Shown one piece after another: positions 16,251 through 48,597 of a stretch of 64,000 nucleotides of DNA. The stretch comes from Subtercola lobariae (GTDB lineage Bacteria; Actinomycetota; Actinomycetes; Actinomycetales; Microbacteriaceae): NCBI RefSeq assembly GCF_014640255.1, contig NZ_BMGP01000002.1:496001-560000 (forward strand), in the 5' to 3' direction. The position numbers and the translations under genes were made by a program. A model generated the notes under the pieces. It saw nothing but the letters and a program-made list of their open reading frames with translations. It was not told the DNA's origin and ran no database searches. Position 1 is the first letter of the stretch, and the number at the start of each line of letters is the position of its first letter.

Positions 16251-16319
16251 CGCTGCTCCCGCCGGCCGCGCCCTGCTCGGGCATACTCTGTGCGCTTAAT
16301 CTAGCGCCACCCGGGCCAG

Positions 16320-16351
16320 TAAGATTGCGGAGCCGGTAACGAAACACCGGC
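16320..16351 (+). promoter_or_regulatory. glyS promoter and leader hairpin
   Basis: A TAAGAT -10 box lies at 16320-16325. About 7 nt on, GCCGGT (16332-16337) and ACCGGC (16346-16351) can form a 6-bp stem with an 8-nt loop at the very 5' end of the transcript. No clear -35 is seen. The hairpin may stabilise the mRNA. Confidence 0.4.
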
Positions 16352-16374
16352 AGCACTTCAGATCAGGGAGAACC

Positions 16375-17763
<1,389 letters not shown>

Positions 17764-28762: not shown

Positions 28763-28950
28763 CTCGGTTTACCGCCGCCGTACCGCTGCATCGCCGACAT
28801 ACCGCTGCACCGCTGACAGCCTCTGTGGCCGACATCGCCAGGAAAGTGCGCCCGCACTCTTGTGCCGAGACCGTGGCAGTCGCACACTGATCTGCACAGG
28901 CGCACTGGCGGCGCGCCCGTGCAATGTCGTGCGGCGAAGGGAGGCCCGCC

Positions 28951-31197: not shown

Positions 31198-31362
31198 AAT
31201 TCCTCCAGAGTCTTCAGACTCGCTCTGAAGCGCCCACCAGTCGCACGACTCGCTTCATAAAGCAGGAGTACAAGGACTCCGTTTCATTACGCCGATTCAC
31301 GAATTCGCGTGCAGGGAATGTGAAATGCGCGCCAAACCCTTCGCGTTCGCTCAGAGTCAGAT

Positions 31363-31384
31363 ATAGTTGCTATACAACAACTAT
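31363..31384. promoter_or_regulatory. ATAGTTG-N8-CAACTAT operator at the MFS promoter
   Basis: A perfect 7-bp inverted repeat with 8-bp spacer lies 41 nt upstream of the MFS start. It contains TATA-like -10 sequences (TATAGT, TATACA), so a bound protein would cover the promoter. The half-site resembles MarR- and TetR-type operators. Confidence 0.5.
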
Positions 31385-31424
31385 TTTCTTGGCGCTCAAT
31401 GGCGAGGCCTGTGACGGAGGAATC

Positions 31425-33194
31425 GTGGCTGAGAAGGCTACTCGCGAACGCGGCGCAATGTTCAGTAAAGACCACCCCAAATACAAGTGGGTGGCACTCA
31501 GTAACACCACGCTCGGCATGCTGATGGTGACCATCAACAGCTCGATCGTGCTCATCTCGCTACCTGCCATCTTCAAGGGCATTCAGCTGAACCCCCTCGA
31601 GCCCGGCAACGTGAGTTACCTGCTCTGGATGCTCATGGGCTTCATTCTCGTCACCGCCGTTCTGACGATGACGTTCGGCCGGCTCGGCGACATCTACGGT
31701 CGCGTGAAGATCTACAACATGGGCTTCGTGATCTTCACGCTCGCAGCTATTGCCCTGGTCTTCGACCCGTTCCTCGCGGGGCAGGGCGCGCTGTGGCTGA
31801 TCGGCTGGCGCGTGGTTCAGGCCGTGGGTGGCGCGATGATCTTCGCCAACTCCACTGCGATTCTGACCGATGCGTTCCCCGCGAACAAGCGCGGCATGGC
31901 CATCGGCATCAACCAGATCGCCGCCATCGCGGGTTCGTTCCTCGGCCTGCTCATCGGCGGTGTGCTCGCGACCATCGACTGGCACCTGATCTTCTTGGTG
32001 AGCGTGCCGTTCGGCATTCTCGGCACCATCTGGTCGTTCAAGTCGCTTCACGAAGTAGGCCAACGCAACCCGGGCAAGGTCGACATTCCGGGCAACGTGC
32101 TCTTCGCGGTAGGCCTCATCTCGCTGCTCACCGGCATCACGTACGGCATTCAGCCCTACGGCGACAGTTCGATGGGCTGGACGAACCCGTGGGTTCTCGG
32201 CGCCATCATCGGCGGCATCGCACTGCTGGTGATCTTCGTCTTCGTCGAACTGCACCACAAAGACCCGCTGTTCAACGTTCGGCTCTTCGCCATCAAGGCG
32301 TTCGCATTCGGCAACGTGGCGGGCCTTTTGGCAGCCATCAGCCGAGGCGGCATGCAGTTCATGCTGATCATCTGGCTGCAGGGCATCTGGCTTCCGCTGC
32401 ACGGGTTCTCGTACGAGAGCACACCGTTGTGGGCCGGCATCTATCTGCTTCCGCTCACCGTCGGCTTCCTCATCTCCGGCCCTCTCTCGGGAACCCTCAG
32501 CGACAAGTTCGGTGCACGAACCTTCGCCGTCGGCGGCCTGCTGCTCGTGGCAGCGACCTTCGTCGCGCTGCTGCTCATTCCAGTGAACTTCAACTACGGC
32601 ATCTTCGCCGTGCTGACCTTCCTGAACGGAGTCGGCTCGGGCATGTTCGCCGCCCCGAACCGCACCGCCATCATGAACAGCGTGCCGGCCAACCAGCGTG
32701 GTGCCGCTTCGGGTATGACCGGTACGTTCCAGAACGCCGGTAACTCGCTCTCGATCGGCATCTTCTTCTCGCTGATGATCGTCGGACTCGCTGCCACCCT
32801 GCCGAGCGCCATGTACGACGGCCTGACGGCCCACGGCATCACGACCGAGATCGCCAATCAGGTTGCCGCGACGCCCCCGGTGGGCAGCCTCTTCGCCGCG
32901 TTCCTCGGCTACAACCCCATCGAGTCGATACTCGGCCCGACAGGCGTGCTGAACTCGCTCTCGCCGGCCAATGCGGCGGCGCTCACCGGTCAGACGTTCT
33001 TCCCCCAGCTGATCTCCGACGCCTTCCACTCGGGTCTGGTCATCGTGTTCACCGCCGCCGCCGTTCTGTCAGTGCTGGGCGCCATCGCCTCGTTCTTCGC
33101 CGGTGGCAAGTACATGAACACCGACACGGGATCCGTGAAGACGGCAAAGCGTGCCGAGCCCTCCGACCTGGCCGCAGAACTCAGCGACGTCTGA
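31425..33194 (+). CDS. MFS transporter, drug:H+ antiporter type (DHA2)
   Basis: Large MFS protein, 589 residues with about 14 helices. Seen: helix 1 LMVTINSSIVLISLPAIFKGI, motif A-like loop GRLGDIYGRVKIYN, helix 5 GSFLGLLIGGVLA. A long C-terminal region includes an extracytoplasmic loop (about 480-535) between the last helices. GTG 31425 has GGAGG 5 nt upstream; a longer frame to 31320 has none. Codon use here is strongly biased to GGC, CTG and ATC, so the gene is probably well expressed. Its upstream inverted repeat suggests repression by an unlinked regulator. Confidence 0.9.
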   Translation: MAEKATRERGAMFSKDHPKYKWVALSNTTLGMLMVTINSSIVLISLPAIFKGIQLNPLEPGNVSYLLWMLMGFILVTAVLTMTFGRLGDIYGRVKIYNMGFVIFTLAAIALVFDPFLAGQGALWLIGWRVVQAVGGAMIFANSTAILTDAFPANKRGMAIGINQIAAIAGSFLGLLIGGVLATIDWHLIFLVSVPFGILGTIWSFKSLHEVGQRNPGKVDIPGNVLFAVGLISLLTGITYGIQPYGDSSMGWTNPWVLGAIIGGIALLVIFVFVELHHKDPLFNVRLFAIKAFAFGNVAGLLAAISRGGMQFMLIIWLQGIWLPLHGFSYESTPLWAGIYLLPLTVGFLISGPLSGTLSDKFGARTFAVGGLLLVAATFVALLLIPVNFNYGIFAVLTFLNGVGSGMFAAPNRTAIMNSVPANQRGAASGMTGTFQNAGNSLSIGIFFSLMIVGLAATLPSAMYDGLTAHGITTEIANQVAATPPVGSLFAAFLGYNPIESILGPTGVLNSLSPANAAALTGQTFFPQLISDAFHSGLVIVFTAAAVLSVLGAIASFFAGGKYMNTDTGSVKTAKRAEPSDLAAELSDV

Positions 33195-34255: not shown

Positions 34256-34891
34256 ATGACCGATTACATTGAAGACAGACTTGCCATCAACGACCTTCTC
34301 ACCGGCTGGATGCACCGCGACCAGAGCGAGTGGACTGAACTCCGTGAGCTCTTTCACCCCGACGGAACCATCGAAATCACCTGGTTCACCGGCCTCTTCA
34401 GCGACTTCGTCGACGCCTCGATTCGCATGGGCGCCTCGAACGTGCGCACGAAGCACCTCATCGCCTCGCCGCTCGTCACCTTCAATGGTGACCGTGCCAT
34501 CGCCGAGACGAACGCCATGATCGTCGCCGAGAACCGTGAGCTGGGTGTCGGCTGCGCAACGCACAACCGCTTCTACGATCAGATCGAACGGCGCGACGGC
34601 GTGTGGCGCATCGTGAACCGCGGCAGCATCTACGACATGGGCAGCTTCACCTTTCCCACCGGGGTCGTCGAGCTCGACCAGGAGACGGTGTCGAAGTACC
34701 CCGCCGAATACGCCGCTCTGGCCTACGTGCTTGAGAAGAGCGGTTTTCCGGTGACGAAGACCTTCCCCACCAAAGGCAGCGAACTCGAAAGCGACATGAA
34801 AGCAGCTGGCGCGGCCTGGCTCGCGGCAGCCGAACCAGTGTCGGCTAACCTGGAATCGGGCCTGCGGCCGGCGCTTTACAACGCGGCGTAG
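34256..34891 (+). CDS. SnoaL-like (NTF2-fold) protein
   Basis: 211-residue protein of the SnoaL/NTF2-like superfamily. The N-terminal helices (EDRLAINDLLTGWMHRDQSEWTELRELFHPDG start at residue 5) with the conserved Asp and His, and the strands VRTKHLIASPLVTFNGDRAIAETNAMIV, form the cone-shaped pocket. Family members are lyases, isomerases, dehydratases or ring hydroxylase subunits. It is followed after 28 nt by an SDR gene, so the pair probably acts on one substrate. A C-terminal extension of about 60 residues is specific to this subgroup. Confidence 0.8.
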   Translation: MTDYIEDRLAINDLLTGWMHRDQSEWTELRELFHPDGTIEITWFTGLFSDFVDASIRMGASNVRTKHLIASPLVTFNGDRAIAETNAMIVAENRELGVGCATHNRFYDQIERRDGVWRIVNRGSIYDMGSFTFPTGVVELDQETVSKYPAEYAALAYVLEKSGFPVTKTFPTKGSELESDMKAAGAAWLAAAEPVSANLESGLRPALYNAA

Positions 34892-34919: not shown

Positions 34920-35660
34920 GTGCAGAGGTTCGAGGGCAGAGTCGCTCTGATCACCGGCGGCAGCCGCGGCATCGGTTTCGCCATTGCGAAACGACTCGTT
35001 GACGAAGGCTGCCAGGTGGTCATCACGGGGCGCAAGCACGAAAGCCTCGACGCGGCCGTCGCCGAACTGGGTGCAGCTGTCGCCGTGGGCGTTGCGGGCA
35101 AGGCCGACGACGCCGAGCACCGCGCCCAGGTCTTCGAACTGATCGACGAGCGCTTCGGCCACCTCGATCATCTCGTCAACAACGCCGGAATCAACCCGGC
35201 CTACGGCGCCCTTCTCGAGGTCGACGAGTCGGCCTTTCGCAAAATGCTCGACGTGAACATCATCGCAACCCTCGGCTGGATACGAGGCGCCGTCGCGGCC
35301 GGGTTCACCGGCTCGATCGTCAACCTCTCGTCGGTGGCCGGCACCACGGCGAGCCCCGGCATCGCCGCCTACGGAATCTCGAAGGCGGGCATCATCAACC
35401 TCACCGTGCAGCTGGCCCAAGAACTGGCGCCGGGCATCCGGGTCAATGCCGTGGCGCCTGCCGTCGTGAAGACCGACTTCGCCCGCGCGCTCTACGAGGG
35501 GCACGAAGAGCAGGCTGCAGCCGAATATCCGCTCGGCCGGCTCGGCCTGCCCGAAGACATCGCGGGCCCGGTAGCGTTTCTGCTCTCAGACGATGCGGCG
35601 TGGATGACCGGGCAGACGCTGCACATCGACGGCGGCATTGCGATCCGCCCGGTCTGGTAG
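34920..35660 (+). CDS. SDR-family oxidoreductase
   Basis: Classical short-chain dehydrogenase/reductase, 246 residues. TGGSRGIG (about 12-19) binds the NAD(P) pyrophosphate; NNAG (about 90-93), Ser (SSVAG, about 139) and YGISK (about 151-155) complete the active site. GTG start with GGAAGAGG upstream. Acts on an alcohol or ketone. Cotranscribed with the SnoaL-like gene. In the levulinate pathway an SDR reduces a 4-oxoacyl-CoA to the 4-hydroxyacyl-CoA; since a kinase/ACAD pair lies 3 kb away, such a role deserves testing, but general 3-oxoacyl reduction is equally possible. Confidence 0.93.
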   Translation: MQRFEGRVALITGGSRGIGFAIAKRLVDEGCQVVITGRKHESLDAAVAELGAAVAVGVAGKADDAEHRAQVFELIDERFGHLDHLVNNAGINPAYGALLEVDESAFRKMLDVNIIATLGWIRGAVAAGFTGSIVNLSSVAGTTASPGIAAYGISKAGIINLTVQLAQELAPGIRVNAVAPAVVKTDFARALYEGHEEQAAAEYPLGRLGLPEDIAGPVAFLLSDDAAWMTGQTLHIDGGIAIRPVW

Positions 35661-35776: not shown

Positions 35777-37486
35777 TCAGACCGCCGCGGCGAACCGCTC
35801 GGTCAACACGCGCTTCAGCACCTTGCCACTCGGCCCGAGTGGAAGCTCGGTGACGAAGTGCACCACCCGCGGAAACTTATAGGCCGCCATGCGCTCGCAC
35901 GCGAACGCGATGAGGTCGTTCGGCTCGACGGTTTCACCCACCCGCGTCACCACCGCCGCATGCACCTCTTGCCCGTGCACGTCGTCGGGCACTCCGAACA
36001 CGGCCACCATGCTCACCGCCGCATGCCGCGCCAGCACCGCCTCGACCTCGGTGGGGTACACGTTGTAGCCGTTTCGCACGATGAGGTCTTTCTTGCGGTC
36101 GACGATGGTGATGAATCCATCGGCGCTGAGCGTGCCGAGGTCGCCCGTGCGCAGCCAGCCGTCAACGACCGCGTCGGCCGAGGCGTCAGGCCTGCCGAGA
36201 TACCCGTTGAACACGTTGTAGCCGCGAACCACGATTTCACCCACGGCGCCGGCATCGGGCAGCAGCTCGATGCGGCCCTCGACCTCCGGCTCGGCAACGG
36301 CCACTTCGACTCCCCAGAGCGGCCTGCCGACGGTTCCCGGGCGCGTCTTCTCGTAGCGCGAGTTCACGGAGACGGTCGATGACGTTTCGGTGAGCCCGTA
36401 CCCCTCGTGTACCTCGGCACCGAACGTCTCCGCGAACTTCTCGAGCACAGCCACGGGCAGGGCTGCACCGCCCGATACGGCGAACCGCAGCGGCGGCCGA
36501 GCCTCTACCCGTGCCGCCGCCGCTTCGATGAGCGCGATATACATGGTGGGCACACCCTCGAACACGGTCGCGCGATGCAACACCATGAGCTCGATGGCCT
36601 CGGCCGCATCGAACTTCGGCAGCAGAATGATGGCGGCGCCCCGCCGAAAGCCCGTGTTCAGCACCGCGGTCTGACCAAAGGTGTGAAAGAGCGGAAGTCC
36701 GCCGAAAATCACGTCGTCAGGCAGAATGTCGAGCGAATCGATCAGGCTGTTGTGCACCTGCTCGACGATCGCCAAGTGCGAGCCCACCGAACCCTTCGGC
36801 GTGCCGGTGGTGCCACTGGTGTAGAGAATGGTGGCGGCATCCATCGGCCTGACGGGCTCGTGGCGTGCAATCGGCACGGCGGCGCCAGCGAGGTCTTCGA
36901 GCCGCCGGATGCTCGGCGGTTCGGTGCCGAGCGCGGCCGCAACCGGCGGGGTGGCGCCCGACCCGGCCGCGTTCGTCGCGATCGTTGCGGGAGTCGCGGG
37001 CGACGCGTTCGCCGCAGTCTTCGCGGCTGGCACGTAGACAACCGGCGGCGGGGCGAGAACGGTCACGAGATCGACCGCCGCATCCCGAGCCGCGGGCAGC
37101 GCCTCGGCCAGCGATGACGAGGCCGCCACAACGAGATCGGCCCCGCTGTCACGCAGCACGTACTCGATCTCGTTCGCCTTGAACAGCAGATGAATGGGCA
37201 CCACGATCGCTCCGAGCGCGAGCACCGCGTAGTACACCCGGGCGAAATCGGGCACGTTCGGAATCAGCACCGCCACCCGGTCGCCCCGCCCGATGCCGAG
37301 CTCGCGCAGTGCCCCCGCATACGCGCGCGTCTGCGACCAGAGTTCGCCGTAACTGAGCGCCTCGCCCCTGAAGTACAGCGCGACCCGGTCGGGCGCGCGC
37401 GTCGCCGACTCCGCCAGAATGCTCGCCACCGAGAGCATGCCGTAGCCGGTGCCGTCGATGGCCGGGTCTGCTGCGTGCCGTGTCAC
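35777..37486 (-). CDS. AMP-forming acyl-CoA synthetase (FadD-like)
   Basis: 569-residue adenylate-forming ligase that activates a carboxylic acid to its CoA thioester with ATP. Seen: YTSGTTGTPKGS (about 222-233, P-loop), GYGLTETSS (about 355-363), GWLRTGDLG (adenine/ribose site) and the C-terminal PSGKVLKR with the catalytic Lys. An Ala/Thr/Pro-rich insert (about 150-190) lies ahead of the P-loop. GTG 37486 is used; ATG 37438 (MLSVASILAES) is a plausible alternative. It follows the acyl-CoA dehydrogenase by 138 nt, so it may share its transcript or have its own promoter. Confidence 0.93.
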   Translation of the reverse strand: MTRHAADPAIDGTGYGMLSVASILAESATRAPDRVALYFRGEALSYGELWSQTRAYAGALRELGIGRGDRVAVLIPNVPDFARVYYAVLALGAIVVPIHLLFKANEIEYVLRDSGADLVVAASSSLAEALPAARDAAVDLVTVLAPPPVVYVPAAKTAANASPATPATIATNAAGSGATPPVAAALGTEPPSIRRLEDLAGAAVPIARHEPVRPMDAATILYTSGTTGTPKGSVGSHLAIVEQVHNSLIDSLDILPDDVIFGGLPLFHTFGQTAVLNTGFRRGAAIILLPKFDAAEAIELMVLHRATVFEGVPTMYIALIEAAAARVEARPPLRFAVSGGAALPVAVLEKFAETFGAEVHEGYGLTETSSTVSVNSRYEKTRPGTVGRPLWGVEVAVAEPEVEGRIELLPDAGAVGEIVVRGYNVFNGYLGRPDASADAVVDGWLRTGDLGTLSADGFITIVDRKKDLIVRNGYNVYPTEVEAVLARHAAVSMVAVFGVPDDVHGQEVHAAVVTRVGETVEPNDLIAFACERMAAYKFPRVVHFVTELPLGPSGKVLKRVLTERFAAAV

Positions 37487-37500
37487 TCGTTCACCACTTT

Positions 37501-37624
37501 CTCGCTGCCGATTCGCGCCGCACTCGTTCTGCCGAGCTCAGCGGGGCACTTCGCGTGATCCGTCATTTCGGCCTCACAATCTCGTCGCCGATTCGCGCCG
37601 CTGAGGCTTTTCTGCCGCGCTCAG
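37501..37624. repeat. Imperfect direct repeat at the ACAD/ligase junction
   Basis: CTCG-2nt-GCCGATTCGCGCCGC occurs at 37501-37521 and 37581-37601, and TTCTGCC(G)(A/C)GCTCAG at 37527-37541 and 37610-37624. The two blocks are about 42 nt long, offset by 80-83 nt. The second ends exactly at the last base before the acyl-CoA dehydrogenase stop codon. This looks like a local duplication. Confidence 0.6.
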
Positions 37625-38833
37625 TCACTTCTTGCCCTTCAGCTCGGCCTTGCCGAGCGCCGCGAGGTGCACCTCGTCGGGCCCGTCGGCGAGCCGCAGG
37701 GCGCGGGCGCCGGCGAGCAGCGAGGCGAGTGGATGATCGGGCCCGAGCCCCGCCGCCCCGAATACCTGCACCGCGTGGTCGAGAATCTGTTGCACGGCCC
37801 GCGGCACCGCGATCTTGATGGCCTGAATCTCGGTCATCGCCTGGCGGTTGCCCACCGTATCCATCAGCCACGCCGTCTTCAGCACGAGCAGCCGCAGCGA
37901 CTCGATCTGAATCCGGGCCTCGGCCGCCCATTCACGAATCACGCCCTGATCGGCCAATCGCACGCCGAACGTCTCTCGCCCGAGCGCCCGCCCACGAACG
38001 AGCGCGAGCGCGTGCTCGGCCATTCCGAGCGCCCGCATGCAGTGGTGGATGCGCCCTGGCCCCAGCCGCGCCTGCGCCATTGCGAAGCCCTCGCCCTCGC
38101 CGCCGAGCAGGTTCGACGCCGGCACCCGCGCGTCGTCGAACAGAATCTCGGCGTGACCGCCGTGATCGCGGTCGTCGTAGCCGAAGACGGTGAGCGGCCG
38201 CACGATGGTGACCCCAGGGGTGTCTCGCCCGACGAGCACCATCGACTGCTGGCGGTGCCGCGGAGCATCCACATCGCTCTTGCCCATCACAATGAAGAGC
38301 TCGGCTTCGGGGTTCATGGCGCCGGTGGCCCACCATTTGCGGCCCGAGATGACGTATTCGTCGCCTTCGCGTCTGATGCGCGTGGCGATCTGGGTGGCGT
38401 CAGACGACGCGACGTCGGGCTCGGTCATGCAGAACGACGAACGGATGCTCGCGTCAAGCAATGGCGCCAGCCACCGCCACTTCTGCTCTTCGGTGGCGTA
38501 GGCCTGCAGCAGGTCGATGTTGCCGCTGTCGGGCGCCATGCAGTTCGTGGCCGCGGGTGCGAGCCGCATGCTCCAGCCGGTGAGTTCGGCGAGCGGGGCG
38601 TACTGCAGGTTCGTCAGGCCGGCGCCCCCTTCACCGGTCAGAAAGAGGTTCCAGAGGCCGCGCTCGCGGGCTGTGGTCTGCAAGTCGCGAACGATGGGGC
38701 GGGTGCCCCACTCGTCTGGGGTCGCTGCAAGCTGCTCGTCGAGAATATGCTCGGCGGGGAATATGTCGTCGTCGAGAAACGATTGCAGCGAATTCTTCAT
38801 CGCGAGGGTGCGGTCGTCGTACGAAAAGTCCAT
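37625..38833 (-). CDS. Acyl-CoA dehydrogenase, ACAD11-like
   Basis: FAD enzyme of 402 residues. The N-terminus MDFSYDDRTLAMKNSLQSFL and the C-terminal DGPDEVHLAALGKAEL are typical of the ACAD10/ACAD11 branch. Middle strands (CMTEPDVASSDATQIATRI; YVISGRKWWATGAMNPEAE) carry the FAD/substrate contacts. In that branch the enzyme works with an APH-type kinase, and for levulinate catabolism the pair turns 4-hydroxyacyl-CoA into enoyl-CoA through a phosphate ester. Here it starts 1 nt after the kinase gene stop, so the two are coupled. The substrate chain length is unknown. Confidence 0.92.
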   Translation of the reverse strand: MDFSYDDRTLAMKNSLQSFLDDDIFPAEHILDEQLAATPDEWGTRPIVRDLQTTARERGLWNLFLTGEGGAGLTNLQYAPLAELTGWSMRLAPAATNCMAPDSGNIDLLQAYATEEQKWRWLAPLLDASIRSSFCMTEPDVASSDATQIATRIRREGDEYVISGRKWWATGAMNPEAELFIVMGKSDVDAPRHRQQSMVLVGRDTPGVTIVRPLTVFGYDDRDHGGHAEILFDDARVPASNLLGGEGEGFAMAQARLGPGRIHHCMRALGMAEHALALVRGRALGRETFGVRLADQGVIREWAAEARIQIESLRLLVLKTAWLMDTVGNRQAMTEIQAIKIAVPRAVQQILDHAVQVFGAAGLGPDHPLASLLAGARALRLADGPDEVHLAALGKAELKGKK

Positions 38834-38834
38834 C

Positions 38835-40058
38835 TCAGTCTTTCTCGTCGGGTGTGCGGTGAGGCGCCGTGTCGGCCAGCGCAGCGGTGGCCTCGCCGTC
38901 GGCGTGCGCAGCGGCGGCCTCCGCATCGGCGGCGCCGTGAGTGGGAGCCGAGACTCGGCCGGAAAGCACGCGGCGAAGGCCCTCTTCGGCGAGCGGCGCG
39001 ACGAGGTCGCCCACCCGTTCGAAGCCGTCGCCCACGGTGCCGCCAGAGGCGTAACGAAAGTGGATGCCCTCAGCGATGACCGCGAGCTTGTAGGCCGCGA
39101 AGGCGCGATACCACGACAGGTCTGGGGTGCGAATGCCCGCTCGAACCGCATACGCATCGATGATTTCGGGAAACGACGCATACCCCGCAGAGACATCGAC
39201 CGCGCTCGGCATGACGGTCTTCGCGCCGGGCAGCTCTGAGATGCCCCAGTACAGCCCGAGCATGCCGAGGTCGACAAGCGCATCACCGAGCGTCGACATC
39301 TCCCAGTCGAGAATCGCCGCTATACGTGGGTGAGAGTGGGGTAGCGGGGTCGGGCGTGTCACGAGGGCGTTGTCGAGGCGGTAGTCGCCATGAACGAGGG
39401 AGGTTCGAGGGGCGGAGGGGTCGGGCATCCGCTCGGCGAGCAGGTCGTGCAGACGTTCGAGGGCAGGCTGCTCGCGTGAGCGTGAGGCGTCGTGCTGCCG
39501 GCGCCAGGTGGCGAGTTGGCGGGTGAGGTATCCGGTCGGGCGACCGAAGTCTTCGAGACCGACGGATTCAGGGTCGACTGCGTGCAGCTCGGCGAGCACT
39601 TCAGCGAGTTCGAGACTGATGCGGTGAAGCTCAGCGGCCTCGAAGGGAGCGTTGTCATGGCGCGTTGCCAGCACGACTCCATCGACGAACCCCATCAGGT
39701 AGAACGGGGTTGCGGTGATCTCCCCGGCTTCGGTGTCGTCGACCAGGTCGATCATCGGCGGAACCGCAACAGCGGTGCTCGCCAGCGCGGCCATCACGCG
39801 GTACTCCCTGCGCATGTCGTGTGCGCTCGCCAGCACATGCGCGAGCGGTGGGCGACGCAGCACCAGCGGCCGCGCGGCCCCCTCGATGCGGTAGGTGAGG
39901 TTGCTGCGCCCGCCCTCGATAAGCGTCGCGGTGATGGTGTCGGGAGGGTCTGCGAGCAGCTCGGGATGCTCGCGGTGCAGCCACCGCGAAAGACCCAGAA
40001 CATCGAGCCCCGCGACCCGCACGCGCGAGTCGGGAGTCGACGGGTGTGAAACGCTCAC
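38835..40058 (-). CDS. APH-type phosphotransferase (ACAD-associated kinase)
   Basis: 407-residue kinase of the aminoglycoside/choline phosphotransferase fold. Seen: N-lobe IEGGRSNLTYRIEG with the Gly-rich nucleotide loop, LVLRRPP (Lys replaced by Arg in the beta-3 position), catalytic loop LVHGDYRLDNALV (about 241-253; Brenner motif H-x-D-x(4)-N) and the metal site AILDWEMSTLGD (about 268-279). The 50-residue tail is Ala/His/Asp low complexity. GTG 40058 overlaps the dehydrogenase stop in GTGA. Relatives phosphorylate the 4-OH of hydroxyacyl-CoA; in mycobacteria the same proteins are often labelled FadE36. Confidence 0.9.
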   Translation of the reverse strand: MSVSHPSTPDSRVRVAGLDVLGLSRWLHREHPELLADPPDTITATLIEGGRSNLTYRIEGAARPLVLRRPPLAHVLASAHDMRREYRVMAALASTAVAVPPMIDLVDDTEAGEITATPFYLMGFVDGVVLATRHDNAPFEAAELHRISLELAEVLAELHAVDPESVGLEDFGRPTGYLTRQLATWRRQHDASRSREQPALERLHDLLAERMPDPSAPRTSLVHGDYRLDNALVTRPTPLPHSHPRIAAILDWEMSTLGDALVDLGMLGLYWGISELPGAKTVMPSAVDVSAGYASFPEIIDAYAVRAGIRTPDLSWYRAFAAYKLAVIAEGIHFRYASGGTVGDGFERVGDLVAPLAEEGLRRVLSGRVSAPTHGAADAEAAAAHADGEATAALADTAPHRTPDEKD

Positions 40059-41224
40059 AGCCGCACGACCTCTTCGCCCGCGAGTGACGGATCGATCACG
40101 ATCTTCGCGTGCGTCTCGGGGTCGCCGAGCGCCGTGAACGCGTTCGCCACGCCTGGCAGTCCCACCCGGCCCGTCACGATGTGCGACGCATCGAGCTTGC
40201 CGTCGGCGAGCGCGTGCAGAGTGTCGCGAAACTCCAGCGGCGTGTAGCCGACCACAAAGCGCAGTTCGATCTCTTTGTTGATGGCCAGCGACGGGCGAAT
40301 CGCGTCGGCTCCCATGGTCACGCCCACCACCACCACACGGGTATGAAGAGGGGCGTCTGCCAGAATGCCGTCGATCATGCCGGGCACGCCGACGCATTCG
40401 AACACCACTGGACGCTTCGGATGCGTCGCTCCCACCGTGTCGAGTGCCCGCCAGGTCGACCACCACGGCACGGGCAGCTTCGAACTCGACTCGATGAGAT
40501 CGATGCCGGCGTTGTACTCGTCGGGCATCGTCTGGTTGAAGCCGTGGCCACCGAGCCGCTGCCACACCGACTCGGTTGCCGGGTTGACGATCTCGGTCGC
40601 CCCGCTTCGCCTGGCCAGAGCTCGGCGAGTGGGCGAGTAATCGCTTGCCACGATCGTCTCGACGCCGCGCGCCTTGAGCACGGCGATCACCGCGAGCCCC
40701 ACGGGACCGCAACCGATCACCACGGCGACTTCTTTCTTACGAATCTCGCTGCGGGCCACCGCGTGCCAGGCGACCGCCATCGGCTCCGTCAACGCCGCCG
40801 TGTCGGCGTCGAGACCGTTAGGCACGGCGAGCGTCAACGACTCCTGCACGGTCACCTGCTCGGCATAGGCCCCTGGGGCATCGGCCGAGAGACCGATTCC
40901 ATCGACCTTCTTGCCATGCCGAACGAGCGGAACGGTCACCACGGGGGTGCCGACCGCCAGCGTTCCGCGGGTCCACGGGCCGAGCTCGGCCACCACGCCG
41001 TAGAGCTCGTGCCCCATGATCACATGCTCGCCCGAGCGCATGAACCGGGTGTAGCCGCAGAGCGTCAGCACGTCGGCGAGGTCGTCGCCGTGCTTCAGCG
41101 AGTGCAAGTCTGAGCCGCAGATTCCGCAGCGTTTCACGTCGAGCAGCAACTGACCCGCGCCAGGCGCCGGCACCTCGACATCGACGTACTCGAGCGCGCC
41201 GCCACTGGCCGAAACGGCCTTCAT
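40055..41224 (-). CDS. Zinc-dependent alcohol dehydrogenase
   Basis: 389-residue medium-chain dehydrogenase. N-terminal GroES-like domain with CGICGSDLH (Cys33, Cys36) and GHE (71-73) for the catalytic zinc; the usual four-Cys structural zinc loop is not seen. The Rossmann fold starts at VVIGCGPVGLAVIAVL (about 170-185). It probably oxidises a secondary alcohol to a ketone for the BVMO gene it overlaps (ATGA). The insert at about 215-250 (GHGFNQTMPDEYNAGIDL) is long for the family. Confidence 0.92.
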   Translation of the reverse strand: MKAVSASGGALEYVDVEVPAPGAGQLLLDVKRCGICGSDLHSLKHGDDLADVLTLCGYTRFMRSGEHVIMGHELYGVVAELGPWTRGTLAVGTPVVTVPLVRHGKKVDGIGLSADAPGAYAEQVTVQESLTLAVPNGLDADTAALTEPMAVAWHAVARSEIRKKEVAVVIGCGPVGLAVIAVLKARGVETIVASDYSPTRRALARRSGATEIVNPATESVWQRLGGHGFNQTMPDEYNAGIDLIESSSKLPVPWWSTWRALDTVGATHPKRPVVFECVGVPGMIDGILADAPLHTRVVVVGVTMGADAIRPSLAINKEIELRFVVGYTPLEFRDTLHALADGKLDASHIVTGRVGLPGVANAFTALGDPETHAKIVIDPSLAGEEVVRL

Positions 41225-42891
41225 CGCGCAGACCGCTCGACGGCCGACAACCGCCGCCCCGCGCCCGCGCCGGCCGCTGCTGCATCTGCGCCGGCCGCGC
41301 TGCCCCGCGCATCCACTCGCCCACGGTCGGTGCTGCCCACGCCAGCGCCCACACCGGCCGCTACCGGCACTGTCGCCAGGTGGTACGCGTCTTTTCGCCA
41401 CTTCTTCGCCTCGCGCCGAAACCGAAAGGTCCAGTCGGGGTAGATCGTGGCGTTGCGGCCGGTGGCGTCTTGGTAGAACGTGGTGCAGCCGCCCACCTCC
41501 CACACCGTGGTGGCCATCTTGCGGTCGATGTCGCGGTTGTACGCGTCGTGCACCGCGGAATCCACTTCTATCGAGGTCGACCCGGTGGTGTCGAGCGCAC
41601 GAATCGCGTTGGTGATGTGCGTCACCTGCGACTCGATCATGTAGATCATCGAGCTGTGCCCGAGGCCCGTGTTCGGCCCCAAGAACATGAAGAAGTTGGG
41701 AAAGCCGGGTACGGATGCTCCCAAGTACGCCCGCGGAGACCCCTGCCACACCTCGTTCATCAGCACCCCGTCGCGCCCGTACACCCGGTCGGCGAACGGA
41801 ATGTCGGTCACGTGAAAGCCCGTGCCGAAGATGATCGTGTCGACCTCGTGCTCGGTTCCGTCGGCATCCACCACCGAATGCGCCCGAATCTCGCGCAGGG
41901 CCTTCGGCACCAGCGTGACGTTCGGCTTCTGCAGCGCCGGGTACCACTCGTTCGACGGAACGATGCGCTTGCACCCGATGGTGAAGTCGGGCGTGAGCGC
42001 CTGACGCAGCACGGGGTCTGACACCTGACTGGCCAGGTGCTTGCTCGAGAGACCCTCGACGAACCGCATCAGTTTGGGCCGTTTCGCGAAGCCGAGCAAC
42101 AGCACCTCTTTGCTGACGTAGACCTTCGCACGGTCGATCTTCTGGGTCATCGGTCGGCTGCGAAACTTCTCGCGCTCCTCAGGCGTGGTGGGCCGCTTGT
42201 CGTGCGGCATGATCCACGGGGCGCTGCGCTGAAACACGAGCAACTCCCCCACCTGGTCGGCGATGCGGGGCACGTATTGAATCGCCGAGGCTCCGGTGCC
42301 GATGGATGCCACGCGCTTACCCGTGAGGTCGTAGTCGTTATCCCAGCGAGCCGAGTGCATCAGTTTGCCCTCGAACAGCTCGATGCCGGGCACGTCGGGC
42401 AGCTTCGGTTCGGTGAGCGGGCCGACGGCACTGACCAGCACCTGCGCGGTGTAAGAACCTTCGCTGGTCTGCAGCTGCCACAGCTGGGCGCCCTCATCCC
42501 AGCGCGCCTCAGTGACGTCGACCCCGGTGTGGAGCCGCGAGCGCAGCCCGAACCGGTCGATGGTGTTCTGGAGGTACGCCCTGATCTCGGGCTGCGGCGA
42601 GTACGTCGACGACCAGTCGGGGTTGGGTGCGAACGAGAGGGAGTACAGGTTCGAGGGCACGTCGCACGTGCATCCGGGGTACGTGTTCAACTGCCACACC
42701 CCGCCCACGTCGGTCGACCGCTCGAGAATCACGAAGTCGGTGAACTTGTTCTTCAGCAGGCTGTGGGCGAGCCCGATGCCCGAGAACCCGCCGCCGACAA
42801 TGACGACCTTGGCGTGCTTCGTGGTGGATTCGGCGGCAGACTCGGCGGCCGTCGCGCCAGCCACGGTCGGCCCCGCCGTGTCGGCGCTCAT
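41221..42891 (-). CDS. Baeyer-Villiger-type flavin monooxygenase
   Basis: 556-residue class B monooxygenase. Seen: VIVGGGFSGIG (about 30-40, FAD), GGVWQLNTYPGCTCDVPS, the BVMO fingerprint FEGKLMHSARWD (about 174-185, F-x-G-x(3)-H-x(3)-W-D) and the NADPH motif SIGTGASA (about 196-203). It should turn a ketone into an ester or lactone. The last 45 residues are Ala/Gly/Arg low complexity, outside the fold. ATG overlaps the MFS stop and its stop overlaps the ADH start, so alcohol dehydrogenase and BVMO are made together. Confidence 0.95.
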   Translation of the reverse strand: MSADTAGPTVAGATAAESAAESTTKHAKVVIVGGGFSGIGLAHSLLKNKFTDFVILERSTDVGGVWQLNTYPGCTCDVPSNLYSLSFAPNPDWSSTYSPQPEIRAYLQNTIDRFGLRSRLHTGVDVTEARWDEGAQLWQLQTSEGSYTAQVLVSAVGPLTEPKLPDVPGIELFEGKLMHSARWDNDYDLTGKRVASIGTGASAIQYVPRIADQVGELLVFQRSAPWIMPHDKRPTTPEEREKFRSRPMTQKIDRAKVYVSKEVLLLGFAKRPKLMRFVEGLSSKHLASQVSDPVLRQALTPDFTIGCKRIVPSNEWYPALQKPNVTLVPKALREIRAHSVVDADGTEHEVDTIIFGTGFHVTDIPFADRVYGRDGVLMNEVWQGSPRAYLGASVPGFPNFFMFLGPNTGLGHSSMIYMIESQVTHITNAIRALDTTGSTSIEVDSAVHDAYNRDIDRKMATTVWEVGGCTTFYQDATGRNATIYPDWTFRFRREAKKWRKDAYHLATVPVAAGVGAGVGSTDRGRVDARGSAAGADAAAAGAGAGRRLSAVERSAR

Positions 42892-44306
42892 GCCACGGCC
42901 TCGGCGGCGAGCATCCGTTCGCGATCGCTCTTCACCGTGCGCGATGTCACGAACATGCCGATGGCGGCCACAATGAACGCAATTGGTACGGCGATCATCA
43001 TTGCGGTCTGCAAACCGTACGCCGAGGCGGCCGAGTCAGACAGGTTCGTGGCACCCTTGGCGAACGAGTCAGACAGCGCACCCACCACAACGGGGCCTCC
43101 GGCGCCCCCGATGACGTAGCCGATGGCGAATACCACGCCGAGAGCGGATGACCGCTGCTTGGCCCCCACCACGTCGCTGACCACCGGCACCGCAGCCGCA
43201 AGGTAGAACATACCGAGCAGGTAGCTCAGCGCGAGAAAGAGCACCAGCTGCCCGAGCACCGACGACGACGCGCTCAGCCCGATGTACGCCAGCGGTGCAG
43301 CCACGAGCAGGCACACCGCGGCGACCATCACGCGCCGTGCGATCGAGGTCTTGGCCACGCGGTCGGTCACCCAGCCACCGAGCAGCAGACCGATCAGGCC
43401 GCCGATGCCGATGACCACACCGCTGACGGCGGCCGCGCTCACCAGATCGAGCCCGTAGTAGCGCTGCAGAACGGGAGTGAGGAAGGTGCCGATGGCGTAG
43501 GCCGCGAAGTTGTAACCGGCGAACGCGATGATGAGTCCGTACATCGAGCGGATGCGCAGCACAGACCAGATGGAGGCGCGCTTGGCGGCGACCGTCGGTC
43601 GGGCGGTTGCGCCTGCGCCGACGGCCGAGTCGGTTGTCGCAGAAGTCGGCCCCGCGCCGGTCAGCGGTTCAGCAGCGGCGATGGCCACGGCATCCGTCGC
43701 CCCACGCTTGGGCTCGCGAATGCGAAACACCAGAATGGCGATGATGATGCCCGGCACGGCCGCAATGAGAAAGGGTGCACGCCAGGAGCCGAATGCCACG
43801 GCGACAGCGCCGACCGTGAAGTACGCGAGCATGGTGCCGATGGGAAAGCCGAGCTGAAACCAGGAGTTCGCCCTGGCCCGCTTCTCGGTGGGGTACAGGT
43901 CTGCCATCAGCGATCCGGCGGCCGGGTCGTAGGCCGCCTCGCCCACGCCGACGCCCACGCGTGAACCGAAGAACACCCAGAAGCTCGAGAAGACGCCGCC
44001 GACAGCGGTGAAGACGCTCCAGATGAGCAGCCCCCAACCCACGACGGTTTTACGCGCGATGCGGTCGGCCAGGTAGCCGAGCGGTATGACCGTGAGCGCG
44101 GCCACGATCACGAACGCGGAGGCGAGCAGGCCCGCCTGGGCGTCGTTGATGCCGAAGGCCTGCTCGATCTGGTCGAGAAGCACCGCCGGAATCGCGCGGT
44201 CGTAGAAGTTGAGCAGGTTGGCCGCGAAGAGCAGCCCGATGATCCAGCCGGCGCGGGAGTGCGGCCGCGTGGTTTTCTCTGGTTTGTCGACCACTTGTTT
44301 CGACAT
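42888..44306 (-). CDS. MFS transporter (spinster-like)
   Basis: 472-residue, twelve-helix MFS protein. Helix 1 reads LLFAANLLNFYDRAIPAVLL, and the loop GYLADRIARKTVVG is motif A; both fit the spinster-like/4-hydroxybenzoate-type carriers of organic acids. The central loop (about 205-245) is Ala/Thr rich. ATG 44306 has GAAGGGA at 8 nt; the frame extends further but without a ribosome site. It is the first gene of the catabolic operon and probably imports its substrate. Confidence 0.9.
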   Translation of the reverse strand: MSKQVVDKPEKTTRPHSRAGWIIGLLFAANLLNFYDRAIPAVLLDQIEQAFGINDAQAGLLASAFVIVAALTVIPLGYLADRIARKTVVGWGLLIWSVFTAVGGVFSSFWVFFGSRVGVGVGEAAYDPAAGSLMADLYPTEKRARANSWFQLGFPIGTMLAYFTVGAVAVAFGSWRAPFLIAAVPGIIIAILVFRIREPKRGATDAVAIAAAEPLTGAGPTSATTDSAVGAGATARPTVAAKRASIWSVLRIRSMYGLIIAFAGYNFAAYAIGTFLTPVLQRYYGLDLVSAAAVSGVVIGIGGLIGLLLGGWVTDRVAKTSIARRVMVAAVCLLVAAPLAYIGLSASSSVLGQLVLFLALSYLLGMFYLAAAVPVVSDVVGAKQRSSALGVVFAIGYVIGGAGGPVVVGALSDSFAKGATNLSDSAASAYGLQTAMMIAVPIAFIVAAIGMFVTSRTVKSDRERMLAAEAVA

Positions 44307-44442
44307 CTGACAGATCCCTTCGTCGTTGAAGAACGTCACAATTTTTGGCGAGCCGAACAACGTCGGGTGGCTGCCTAGGCACAGTATGGGCCGCAGTCGC
44401 AGCGCACTCCATGGCTGCGGCACCAAGAGATTTCGCGCGCTC

Positions 44443-44479
44443 TTGTTCTGGCGAACAACTGACGCGTAGGGTGGGGCGC
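44443..44479 (+). promoter_or_regulatory. Leaderless promoter with a 16-bp palindromic operator
   Basis: TTGTTC (44443-44448), 18 nt, then TAGGGT (44467-44472) and 7 nt to the ATG of the PucR gene. TTGTTC-TGGC-GAACAA (44443-44458) is a perfect inverted repeat that covers the -35. A GAACAA half-site recurs at 44355-44360 on the MFS side. This suggests autorepression and control of the divergent operon. Confidence 0.6.
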
Positions 44480-45862
44480 ATGCATGACGACACTGAAGTC
44501 GACAGCGCCGAACTCTGGCCGCGGCGTCGACGGATGCCCGAGCTCACCACTCTCGACGAACCCAGCCTCGCGGCGCTGATGGCCGCCGTGGGCCGGTTGC
44601 GCGAGTCGGTCGACAGCTGGAGCGAGCGGTTTCTCGCACTCGCCCGGCAGTTCATTCCGGGGTACGAGTTGCTCACCGACGACGAGATCAGAGCCTCGGC
44701 GCGATCGTTTCTCGAGGGCGAGATCAACGAGTTGGCGTCGTTCCGCATTCCCGACGCTGCCCTGCGCGAGCAGCTGCAGGTGCTGGCGCTGCGCCGAGTC
44801 GCGCAGGGGGTCTCGATCGATACGCTCTCACTGAGCTACCGGCTCGGTTCGCGCGAGATGCTCGCGCTCGTCGACGAGATCGCGGTCGAAGTGAACATGC
44901 CGAAAGACCTGCTCCTCGCCATTCACGACAGTTCGTGGGAGTTCGCGAACGAGGCGTCGACGGTTTTCGCGCGGGTGCAGCGCGAGATCACGGTCGAGCG
45001 CGCCCGATTCGACGCCGAGCGGCGCGCGGCGTTCGGCAGGGGCATCCTGAGCGGAACGCTGCCCGTCGACGACATCATTCGTGACGCGGGGTTGTTCGGG
45101 CTGGATGCGCGCCGTGACTACGTGGTGCTGGTGGCACGAGCGACCTCGACCGCCTCGACCGAGGCGGTACGACGCGCCATGACCGCCGCGACCCGCACCG
45201 CGCCAGACCGGCTGCTGTTCGTGAAGATCGGCGACCAGCTCGGGTGCATTGCGCCGACTGCCCCGGTGGCGGCGGGGGTGGCTGTGCTCGCGGTGGGCAC
45301 GGCGGGGCCGCTGGAGTCGCTGCACACCGCGTTCGAGGAGGCAGTGCTCGCCCTCGAGACCGCAGAGCGATTCGAACTGCACGGAACTGTTCGGCTCGAC
45401 GATCTGGGGGCACGGCCCCTGGTGCTCGCGGAGTCGCGAGCCGCCGGCTTGCTCGAGACGCGACACTTCGGGGTTCTCGACGCCGACGAACGCGGCGGGC
45501 CGGAGCATGGCGGTTCGGAACTCGAAGAGACCACTCGGGTGTACCTCGAGTGCGACCAGCAGGCGCATGAGGCGGCGCGGCGGCTCACCGTGCATCCGAA
45601 CACCGTGCGCTATCGAGTGAACCGCTTTCGCGAGGTTACCGGGCTCGACGTTCGCCGAACCGAAGACCTCGTGGCTGCGTGGTGGCTTCTGAACCGCCGG
45701 CGCGGGCTGCGGCGAGGAGGCGCGGGCGCGGAATCGAGGGTGGACGACGGCCTTGTGGTTCACAGCCCTGACACTGGCGGCGCTGGCGCTGCGGACCGTG
45801 GTGACACCGGCACTTCGAGCGAACCCGTCGTTCACGGTGCCGGCCTCGAATATGTGTCGTGA
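44480..45862 (+). CDS. PucR-family transcriptional regulator
   Basis: 460-residue regulator. It has an N-terminal helical domain (about 20-170), a central GGDEF-like/CdaR domain (about 175-300) and the C-terminal PucR HTH (ECDQQAHEAARRLTVHPNTVRYRVNRF, about 345-371). A Gly/Asp/Ser tail of about 50 residues follows. The start at 44480 is fixed by the TAGGGT box. It is divergent from the MFS-BVMO-ADH-kinase-ACAD operon and is its likely regulator, responding to the substrate or an intermediate. Confidence 0.92.
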   Translation: MHDDTEVDSAELWPRRRRMPELTTLDEPSLAALMAAVGRLRESVDSWSERFLALARQFIPGYELLTDDEIRASARSFLEGEINELASFRIPDAALREQLQVLALRRVAQGVSIDTLSLSYRLGSREMLALVDEIAVEVNMPKDLLLAIHDSSWEFANEASTVFARVQREITVERARFDAERRAAFGRGILSGTLPVDDIIRDAGLFGLDARRDYVVLVARATSTASTEAVRRAMTAATRTAPDRLLFVKIGDQLGCIAPTAPVAAGVAVLAVGTAGPLESLHTAFEEAVLALETAERFELHGTVRLDDLGARPLVLAESRAAGLLETRHFGVLDADERGGPEHGGSELEETTRVYLECDQQAHEAARRLTVHPNTVRYRVNRFREVTGLDVRRTEDLVAAWWLLNRRRGLRRGGAGAESRVDDGLVVHSPDTGGAGAADRGDTGTSSEPVVHGAGLEYVS

Positions 45863-46608: not shown

Positions 46609-48597
46609 TTACTCGTCGCCCCACACCGGGGCGGCAGCCGGCGCGTACTGAATCTCACTGTTACCCACACCCTGAGGAACCATGGGCCACACCATCGCCT
46701 CGGGGCTCACCACGAAGTCGATCACCACGCTGCGGTCGTTCGTGGCGAGGGCGAGTTCGATAGCGGCATCCACTTCGCCTGCCGTGCGAACCCGCAACGC
46801 GAGGGCGCCGTATGATTCGCCGAGCTTCACGAAGTCGGGCACCATTTGGCTGCCGTGGCCGGTGTCGAGGTCGGTGAACGAGTGCCGGTTGTCGTAGAAC
46901 AGGGTCTGCCACTGCCGCACCATGCCCAGCGACGAGTTGTTGATGATCGCGACCTTGATGGGAATGCTGTTCACGGCGCACGTAGCGAGTTCTTGGTTCG
47001 TCATCTGAAAGCAGCCGTCGCCGTCGATGGCCCACACGGTGCGGTGGGGCTCAGCGACCTTCGCGCCCATGGCGGCGGGAACACTGTAGCCCATGGTGCC
47101 CGCGCCGCCCGAGTTGAGCCAGGCGTGCGGGCGCTCGTATCCGATGAATTGGGCAGCCCACATCTGGTGCTGTCCGACGCCCGAGGCGTACACGGCGTCG
47201 GGCCCGCTGAGCGCGCCGAGCCGTTCGATCACGTATTGAGGTGAGAGCAGGCCGTCGAGCGGCTCGTCGTAGCCGAGCGGAAACTGCTCGCGCAGCCCGT
47301 CGAGCCGCTGCCACCACGTGGCGATGCCCGGGTTTCGGGGCTGGCTGGCGGCTCGGGCCGTGGGCGTGGCGCTGGCCGCGCGGGTCGGGGCGGCTGCAGC
47401 TCCGGATGCCCATGCCGCCCACTCGGCGGCGAGCTGCGTCATGACAGCGGCGGCGTCACCCACGATCGGTACCTCGGCGTGGCGGATCTTCGAGATCTCG
47501 GCCGGGTCTACATCGGCGTGGATGACGCGGGCCAGCGGCGCGAAGTGCGCGGGATCACCGGTGACCCGTTCGTCGAAACGAGCGCCGATTGCGACGATGA
47601 GGTCGGCCTCCTGCAGCGCCAGAACGGCGGGTACGGTGCCGTGCATTCCGGGCATCCCGAGCTGATGCCTGTCAGAGTCGGGAATGACTCCGCGGGCCAT
47701 CAGGGTGGTGACCGTCGGAAAGTCGGTGAGTTCGACGAGGGCCGCGAGTTCGGCCGAGGCGCCGGAACGCACGATGCCGCCGCCGGCGTAGATGACGGGG
47801 CGTTCGGCCGAACGCATGAGCGTCACGGCCGCCGCGATCTGGGCGTGGCTAACGCGCGTGTAGGCGCGGTAGCCGGGCAGCGCGGGCTCCGGCGTGAAGC
47901 GAAAAGGCGCCGACGCCTGCTGGGCGTCTTTCGCGATGTCGACCACGACGGGGCCGGGGCGCCCGGTGCTCGCCAGGTGGTAAGCGCTGGCCAGGGCATC
48001 CGGAATCTCGTCGACCGTCGTCACGAGCAGCGAGTGCTTCGTGATGGGCATGGTGATGCCCACGATGTCGGCCTCTTGAAACGCATCGGTGCCGCGCAGG
48101 CCCGAGAACACTTGGCCGGTGACGATGAGCAGCGGAACGGAGTCGAGGTACGCGTCGGCGATGGGGGTGACGAGGTTGGTGGCGCCAGGGCCGCTGGTGG
48201 CGATGGCGACGCCGACCCGCCCGGTGGATGCCGCGTACCCTTCGGCCGCGTGACCGGCGCCCTGCTCGTGACGGGTGAGAATGTGACGCAGCCCGGTGGC
48301 GCTCATCAGAGCGTCGTAGAGCGGAATCACGTTGCCGCCCGGAATGCCGAACACGTCGGTCACTCCAAGGGCTTCGAGGCTCCACACGATGGCCTGGGCG
48401 CCGGTGACGACCTGGCCCTGGCGTTCGGCGAGCAGGCGCTCGCGCGCGGTGGTGCCGTCAGCGGTGGTGGCTGAGGCGGCGGCGGCTGAGCGCCCGGTCG
48501 GGTCGCCGGGGGCAACCGGGCGCGCGCCGACCGTGCGAACCGTCGCGACGCCGCCCGAGCGACCGGCGGCGGGTGTGGCCGTCGGTTTCGGGGTCAC
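46609..48597 (-). CDS. ilvB: Acetolactate synthase large subunit (ThDP enzyme)
   Basis: 662 residues. It condenses two pyruvates (or pyruvate and 2-oxobutyrate) to acetolactate for branched-chain amino acids. Seen: [15 protein letters not shown] (about 83-97), the catalytic Glu in [16 protein letters not shown] (Glu111), the FAD/middle domain ([11 protein letters not shown]) and the ThDP-Mg site IDGDGCFQM...[13 protein letters not shown] (about 520-550). The first 60 residues are Ala/Thr/Gly low complexity. GTG overlaps the E2 stop. No regulatory subunit gene (ilvN) or ilvC follows, which is unusual for the biosynthetic enzyme; a dedicated catabolic or second copy is possible. Confidence 0.93.

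Follow-up and report, generated by a model that had tools for sequence, protein, structure and literature searches.

A Baeyer-Villiger monooxygenase and an alcohol dehydrogenase joined to an ACAD11-type kinase-dehydrogenase pair in one operon of Subtercola lobariae

The locus described here raises the question of whether the hydroxyl group generated by a Baeyer-Villiger monooxygenase (BVMO) may be lost through phosphorylation followed by elimination rather than oxidised. It is located in a stretch of 64,000 nucleotides from Subtercola lobariae (contig NZ_BMGP01000002.1, positions 496,001 to 560,000), which is referred to as the window, and comprises six genes on the reverse strand at positions 35777-44306. 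We see about an even chance that these genes form a catabolic operon in which a front end for ketones and alcohols is coupled to the closing steps of a conserved route for 4-hydroxyacyl-CoA. The front end would consist of a PucR-type regulator, a transporter of the major facilitator superfamily (MFS), an alcohol dehydrogenase (ADH1) and the BVMO; the pathway end would consist of a kinase, an acyl-CoA dehydrogenase (ACAD) of the ACAD11 type and an acyl-CoA ligase.

Operon layout and front end

The first gene of the operon (42888-44306, reverse strand as for all six) codes for the MFS transporter (PF07690, 2.1e-53). It is followed by the genes for a type I BVMO (41221-42891), the zinc-type medium-chain alcohol dehydrogenase ADH1 (40055-41224; PF00107/PF08240), an APH-family kinase of the LvaA/ACAD11 kinase-domain type (38835-40058, GTG start at 40058; PF01636, 1.3e-46), an ACAD11/LvaC-type ACAD (37625-38833) and an AMP-forming acyl-CoA ligase (35777-37438, alternative start 37486; PF00501, 3.3e-88). 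The corresponding Pfam families are MFS_1, FMO-like/Pyr_redox, ADH_N/ADH_zinc_N, APH, acyl-CoA dehydrogenase and AMP-binding. Inspection of open reading frames and start sites revealed 4-nt overlaps at the MFS/BVMO, BVMO/ADH1 and ADH1/kinase junctions. The kinase and ACAD genes are separated by 1 nt, the ACAD and ligase genes by 186 nt (138 nt if the ligase starts at 37486). Coordinates, gene order and the tight packing of the first five genes agree with the original prediction, which had been made from the letters of the window. A scan for promoters and terminators was uninformative (0 and 2 found versus 0.5 and 3.8 expected). The operon is genuine, and its genes plausibly serve one pathway.

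The gene of the PucR-type regulator (44480-45862, +) is divergent from the operon. Its reading frame is open from 44345, and comparison with the orthologous locus of Glaciibacter flavus (L010) makes the ATG at 44480 the likely start; a Pfam search on 44405-45862 identified PF13556 (HTH_30, 1.5e-17) and GGDEF_2. Relatives are found in the same divergent position in Cellulomonas sp. PhB143 (L009, 56%) and in L010 (64%), and the protein is the probable regulator of the BVMO module.

Type I BVMOs are characterized by the fingerprint FxGxxxHxxxW(P/D), by a second fingerprint, (A/G)GxWxxxx(F/Y)P(G/M)xxxD, and by two Rossmann motifs. The BVMO of the window carries the first fingerprint as FEGKLMHSARWD, the second as GGVWQLNTYPGCTCD, and the Rossmann motifs GGGFSG and GTGASA; in the orthologues from L009 and L010 the first fingerprint reads FRGTIMHSARWD and FRGKVMHSARWD. 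The best matches in the PDB are a steroid monooxygenase and a cyclohexanone monooxygenase (7e-69 to 5e-68). By these features the protein belongs to the type I family, and it is predicted to convert a ketone to an ester or lactone. ADH1 retains the motifs CGICGSDLH and GHE, the structural-zinc Cys cluster was not seen on reading, and the best PDB match is an (R,R)-butanediol dehydrogenase (6.8e-32). None of the six operon proteins reaches the cut-off of an NCBIfam model (for the MFS and ligase proteins, among the 25 best rows). All rows of the BVMO and of ADH1 being below cut-off, their assignment comes from fingerprints and homology, and it is conceivable that sulfur, nitrogen or an aldehyde is what the BVMO-family protein oxidises and that ADH1 works reductively, the operon serving another class of compounds. 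Both type I fingerprints are present in all three orthologues, however, and the closest solved structures are the two monooxygenases just named, which makes such a role very unlikely.

Recurrence of the joined gene order

A BVMO scan of a genome collection of 84,980 species yielded 137 confirmed loci, the best 80 of which were analysed (11 of these are shorter than 10 kb). Among these 80, the BVMO identity exceeds 60% only in L009 (77%) and L010 (74%); the next value is 55%. The same two loci are the only ones that hold a relative of the kinase (1e-8) or an ACAD relative of at least 45% identity in the fetched flanks, and the other 78 contain no kinase relative at 1e-8. Both share the order PucR | MFS-BVMO-ADH1-ADH2-SDR-MaoC ... 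thioesterase-kinase-ACAD, where ADH2 is a second alcohol dehydrogenase and SDR a short-chain dehydrogenase/reductase. L009 continues to the ligase; L010 stops inside the ACAD gene and additionally contains a thiolase and a second ACAD (ACAD2) on the opposite strand as well as a TetR regulator. In L009, 4-nt overlaps occur at MFS/BVMO, BVMO/ADH1, ADH2/SDR, SDR/MaoC, MaoC/thioesterase and thioesterase/kinase. Two genera besides that of the window share the order MFS-BVMO-ADH1 ... kinase-ACAD, the proteins being 57-77% identical; the values are 57% (L009) and 59% (L010) for the MFS transporter and 71-73% for ADH1. The joining of BVMO and ADH to an ACAD11/LvaAC-type pair, proposed in the original prediction, is supported by these loci. 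As a separate observation, the ADH1 frame of L009 (11473-14571) lacks the expected stop and is open into the frame of the SDR gene, which is a real extension, a frameshift or a high-GC artefact.

The joining is rare but recurrent. A BVMO match as good as 1e-155 was found only in S. lobariae among 398 genomes of its family (with scoring limited to three candidates per genome), and the 10 other genomes of its genus in this sample lack such a match. At 1e-120, 38 of 249 family genomes gave a match, the best one outside S. lobariae having 47% identity. Among 394 genomes at class level, the kinase (1e-40) was present in 275 and the BVMO (1e-90) in 188. Apart from the pair in the window, no kinase and BVMO gene lie within 25 kb of each other among the matches listed, the next distances being about 28 and 37 kb; these pairs were read by eye from kinase rows down to 2e-70 and BVMO rows down to 1.5e-132, with at most four and three candidates per genome, respectively. 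In a plasmid collection, BVMO relatives turned up in 111 records and kinase relatives in 165 at the set limits, counted per record and all below 60% identity.

One could argue that a recent rearrangement has made neighbours of genes that share no function. A rearrangement did take place, as is evident from the core genes that are split in two on contig C2 (see below), and the 10 congeneric genomes without a match to this BVMO at 1e-155 fit this idea. On the other hand, the genes overlap, and the same joining is found in two other genera with extra genes in between. Because it occurs in two orthologous loci, a chance juxtaposition is unlikely, and we regard this explanation as almost negligible.

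More distant relatives of ADH1 (51-61%) occur in 11 genomes of the class (L113-L123, L126-L136) from two other families, 7 of them belonging to one genus with genomes of 5-6 Mb. The fetched neighbourhoods of these 11 loci contain neither a kinase relative nor a close ACAD11-type relative; one has an ACAD stretch of 30% identity and another has two BVMO-like matches (30-34%). A still more distant locus, L137, has neither a kinase nor an ACAD relative. In L138 (7993-13517; genome G264, same phylum), the gene for an ADH1 relative (41%) is flanked by those for an ACAD and a kinase, which have 38% and 37% identity, respectively, to the pair encoded on contig C10 of S. lobariae (see below). The ACAD of L138 has the motif NCQAPDEGN, its patterns RxGPGRxHHxMR and DGPDEVH were not found, and the kinase has HGDYKLDN. 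L138 is possibly a distant echo of an ADH combined with a kinase-ACAD pair.

Predicted substrate and the conserved core

The kinase matches the PDB entries 9o56, 3dxp and ACAD11 (1e-50 to 3e-45; ACAD11 8v3v, 2e-46). In the alignment to 8v3v, whose residue numbers are those of the PDB sequence with an offset of one, Asp and Asn of the motif HGDYRLDN correspond to D220 and N225 of ACAD11, and the Arg of RQ..W to R176, the Arg at the CoA side. R86 of ACAD11 is not exactly matchable; by the offset, residue 84 is the Arg next to the helix-C Glu, and the window kinase has an Arg at this position. The ACAD matches human ACAD11 (2wbi, 1.6e-123) and a putative ACAD (4hr3, 1e-114) much better than a medium-chain ACAD (about 1e-36). 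Its stretches RLGPGRIHHCMR and LRLADGPDEVH retain the residues aligned to R626, R631, H634, R637 and the catalytic D753, an Asp that replaces a Glu in the ACAD11 type. The key residues were taken from Rashan et al. 2025 (PMC12440821). The ACAD motif NCMAPDSGN aligns with NCQAPDTGN of 2wbi; its Pro may correspond to P463 of human ACAD11, the conserved proline of ACAD10/11 described by Paquay et al. (PMC11342911) as widening the pocket. Judging from these residues, the expected substrates are a 4-hydroxyacyl-CoA for the kinase and a 4-phosphoacyl-CoA for the ACAD.

From a ketone with a five- or six-membered ring, Baeyer-Villiger oxidation followed by ring opening leads to a 5- or 6-hydroxy acid. 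When hydroxyhexanoates were compared in cells by Paquay et al. 2024 (PMC11342911), the 4-hydroxy compound gave rise to a phospho-hydroxyacyl-CoA, whereas the 5- and 6-hydroxy compounds did not; the enzyme was ACAD10 and not the window kinase. Because of this specificity, the lactone of an ordinary five- or six-membered ring ketone is probably not a direct source of the kinase substrate. The result speaks against the earlier notion that the kinase-ACAD pair dehydrates 4- or 5-hydroxyacyl-CoA alike. Of the originally proposed route from alcohol to enoyl-CoA, the core idea of two joined chemistries stands, whereas the direct step from lactone to kinase has become doubtful. This direct route, in which the opened lactone is the kinase substrate and no beta-oxidation intervenes, would require the BVMO product to be a gamma-lactone, or else an ester from which a 4-hydroxy acid is released. 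The window operon, which besides the BVMO and ADH1 holds only ligase, kinase and ACAD downstream of the transporter, would suit it. Substrates of the cyclopentanone or cyclohexanone type give 5- or 6-hydroxy acids, however, and a hydratase and an SDR lie within the same cluster in L009 and L010. We consider the direct route distinctly unlikely.

LvaB, the absence of which had been taken as a gap, need not be one. No LvaB-like gene fits between kinase and ACAD, and LvaB was not searched for elsewhere. Recombinant ACAD10/11 perform both steps, and orthologues of LvaA and LvaC from Burkholderia substituted for the parts of ACAD10, as reported in the sections available of PMC11342911. The main texts of the two papers on ACAD10/11 do not name LvaB.

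Seven loci surround the closest relatives of the kinase (60-65%): G079, G964, G240, G215, G846, G194 and G926, of which G846 belongs to the order of S. lobariae and the other six to its family. Nine core genes were sought, namely those for ADH2, SDR, MaoC, thiolase, ACAD2, thioesterase, kinase, ACAD11 and ligase, with the layout ADH2-SDR-MaoC / thiolase-ACAD2 / QsdR-like TetR / thioesterase-kinase-ACAD11-ligase. All nine are present in four loci; G846 has eight (no ligase), G194, which starts at a contig end, six, and G964 three. Ligase relatives (62-67%) follow the ACAD gene in five of the seven and in L009. The BVMO, ADH1 and the MFS transporter were not found in any of the seven. Each of them encodes a TetR regulator with 71-84% identity to that of L010; the one in a second locus of S. 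lobariae has 59%. The TetR proteins of L010 and S. lobariae have a single PDB match each at 0.01, to 4ZA6 (8.7e-18 and 2e-12). This entry is QsdR (PMC4640858), which has been described as a lactone-sensing repressor (PMC6262395; both sources available in part). By this homology, the core regulator appears to be QsdR-like.

Since the published specificity is for a 4-hydroxyl group and the core carries the kinds of enzyme needed for one round of beta-oxidation, a prior chain-shortening round is favoured. We infer the following order of steps. ADH1 would oxidise a secondary alcohol to the ketone, and oxygen insertion by the BVMO would turn this ketone into a lactone or ester. An esterase or lactonase encoded elsewhere would release the hydroxy acid, and the ligase would convert it to its CoA ester. 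If the hydroxyl group is at C6, as expected for a six-membered ring ketone, one round of beta-oxidation by ACAD2, MaoC, SDR and thiolase would yield the 4-hydroxyacyl-CoA. The kinase would then phosphorylate the 4-hydroxyl group, and the ACAD would eliminate phosphate to form a 2-enoyl-CoA.

That relatives possess the core but lack this BVMO also allows for two separate tasks on one substrate: BVMO and ADH would attack a ring or side-chain ketone, and the kinase-ACAD pair would handle a hydroxyl group that is already there or arises separately. The core substrate need not be derived from a BVMO, and the front end is an add-on. The overlapping order BVMO-ADH1-kinase-ACAD suggests tight sharing, without being decisive, and we consider this division of labour rather unlikely.

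In S. lobariae itself, the core is split over two places on contig C2. The genes for MaoC, SDR, ADH2, ACAD2, TetR (TetR_C_36) and thioesterase are located at C2:607.9-612.7 kb (L164, 7919-12735), at a distance of about 70 kb from the operon, and are arranged as in the relatives (MaoC-SDR-ADH2-ACAD2 and TetR-thioesterase). Within the 20 kb read (C2:600000-619999), kinase, ACAD11, ligase and thiolase were not found. The second locus is the complement of the kinase-ACAD-ligase set of the window. It is because of this split that the pathway looked incomplete in the original prediction: a pathway deduced from the operon is probably not complete there, as MaoC, SDR, ADH2, ACAD2, thioesterase and the QsdR-like regulator, which are linked to kinase-ACAD in relatives, lie at the second locus. 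The latter adjoins genes for a FAD monooxygenase, an amidohydrolase, an aldehyde dehydrogenase and an enoyl-CoA hydratase.

Several points weigh against a joint pathway with chain shortening. The substrate and the product are predictions. The BVMO module was found in three genomes, so that the linkage is based on few cases, and no esterase or lactonase is linked in these three clusters. The chain-shortening genes lie outside the operon in S. lobariae, which also fits a pathway that does not need them. Thiolase is absent from the window and from C2:600-620 kb; one candidate, with 71% identity to the L010 thiolase, is encoded on C10, another (a 33-35% relative) on C2 at about 563.8-564.9 kb, and no search of the S. 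lobariae genome for others was made. An ACAD2 relative on contig C1 (60%) is nearly as close as that of the core (64%). The QsdR-like TetR was not found in L009, and QsdR itself bound none of four lactones in calorimetry according to the sections available of PMC4640858. Gene histories add two further points. Trees were calculated for kinase, ACAD and ligase (11, 11 and 7 rows; L010 is absent from the ligase tree), and the kinase tree does not resolve the branches around the window protein. By plain identity, G079 is nearest for kinase (68%), ACAD (76%) and ligase (72%), yet it lacks the BVMO module. In favour of the joint pathway, the ligase groups with Cellulomonas (99/98) and the ACAD groups with Glaciibacter (93/90, a value under the starred level) in the other trees, which hints at most at a shared history of the BVMO-bearing clusters.

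That a dedicated esterase or lactonase is missing from the operon had been predicted and holds, as there is none among the six genes or in the clusters of L009 and L010. The nearest esterase found, of the HSL type (26891-27826, +), lies about 8 kb from the operon. It was not assigned to the pathway: no relative above 34% exists in the fetched loci (28-33% matches in eight), and it is near a second BVMO-like gene. A beta-lactamase-fold esterase is encoded divergently beside ADH2 in three of the five loci in which the ADH2 flank was read (G079, G215, G926; L147 3436-4614, L148 13043-14266 and L150 about 15948-17009; 67-73% mutual identity), and is a candidate lactonase of the core. It has no match at 1e-10 in the genomes of S. 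lobariae and Cellulomonas sp. PhB143.

Tentatively, and with somewhat less than an even chance, the findings may be generalized to a modular lactone island, in which a core under a QsdR-like regulator would combine with interchangeable front ends: a beta-lactamase-fold esterase where lactones are supplied ready-made, or a BVMO and an ADH that make the lactone from a ketone. The hydroxyl group from the Baeyer-Villiger reaction would be lost by phosphorylation and elimination and not oxidised to a dicarboxylate, as a second general ending of BVMO pathways. S. lobariae would have re-wired this island, with kinase, ACAD and ligase directly behind BVMO and ADH1.

Neighbouring genes

An SDR gene (34920-35660, +; PF13561, 4.8e-57) is convergent with the ligase gene and is a probable associate of the operon. 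A relative lies near kinase-ACAD in L140 (73%), another occurs in L144 (68%), and one of 53% adjoins a second kinase-ACAD11 pair of S. lobariae on contig C10 (30.9 kb; L089, 6618-18352). Beside the SDR gene, a SnoaL-like protein is encoded (34256-34891, +; PF13577, 1.4e-19), for which tblastn gave no relative at 1e-8 in any fetched locus. The pair on C10 is accompanied by the thiolase mentioned above, one SDR with 75% identity to its L009 counterpart, additional SDRs, MaoC, a luciferase-like monooxygenase, an MFS protein and an alpha/beta hydrolase. For this hydrolase the top NCBIfam rows, which do not reach the cut-off, name 3-oxoadipate enol-lactonases. A weak rve match, also below cut-off, is located at L089 5833-6483. 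C10 possibly carries a parallel oxygenase-plus-kinase cluster.

The second BVMO-like gene (28924-30402, +) encodes a protein with 43% identity to the first BVMO, in which the fingerprint reads FGGPAFHSAHWN, with an Asn instead of P/D. Together with the nearby HSL-type esterase and an MFS gene (31320-33194) it is possibly a second ketone module. Like the PucR-type regulator and the SDR gene at 34920-35660, it had been overlooked in the original prediction. Near the PucR gene, three consecutive genes (46609-52318, -) resemble, as guessed from sequence, a thiamine-diphosphate enzyme of the acetolactate-synthase type and parts of a 2-oxoacid dehydrogenase.

Comparison with known systems

To our knowledge, the known BVMO pathways end by oxidising the hydroxy acid. 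Among the titles and abstract openings listed from the open-access literature, none describes a BVMO combined with a kinase/ACAD11 pair, in line with the earlier statement that no described operon is known to join both chemistries; the one co-mention of BVMO and ACAD11 is, judged by title and abstract opening, a study of mouse FMO5. The phosphate chemistry of ACAD10/11 was assigned in mammals in 2024 and 2025 (PMC11342911, PMC12440821). If the proposed pathway is true, some bacteria feed a BVMO product into beta-oxidation by means of this chemistry. In these bacteria 4-hydroxyacyl-CoAs would then have a physiological origin, the mechanism could be studied with a ready set of bacterial enzymes, and the conserved cluster that is present in relatives without the BVMO would gain a substrate class open to testing.

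Compared to the lva operon of Pseudomonas putida (lvaEDABC), the window operon has the same types of kinase (LvaA) and dehydrogenase (LvaC) and likewise an acyl-CoA ligase (LvaE), and the same 4-hydroxyacyl-CoA chemistry is expected. In contrast to lva, the window has no LvaB-like gene between kinase and ACAD; the lva operon presumably has no BVMO or ADH front end. The core of the relatives adds to the lva set a hydratase, ACAD2, a thiolase, a thioesterase, a second ADH and the QsdR-like regulator. Human and mouse ACAD10/ACAD11 share the catalytic and phosphate-binding residues of both domains with the window pair. They are fused kinase-ACAD proteins, whereas the window encodes the two activities in genes 1 nt apart and without a HAD domain.

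A QsdR-like TetR and an acyl-CoA ligase are common to the core of the relatives and to the qsd operon of Rhodococcus erythropolis (QsdR, the lactonase QsdA and the ligase QsdC), which handles gamma-lactones according to the part of PMC6262395 available. A word search of main texts on qsd and QsdR did not find phosphotransferase (in three texts), acyl-CoA dehydrogenase (in two) or acyl-CoA (in one). The chn (cyclohexanol) and cpn (cyclopentanol) clusters combine an ADH and a type I BVMO with a lactonase and convert the hydroxy acid to a dicarboxylate. The window operon likewise pairs an ADH with a type I BVMO, and in place of a linked lactonase it contains the kinase-ACAD pair.

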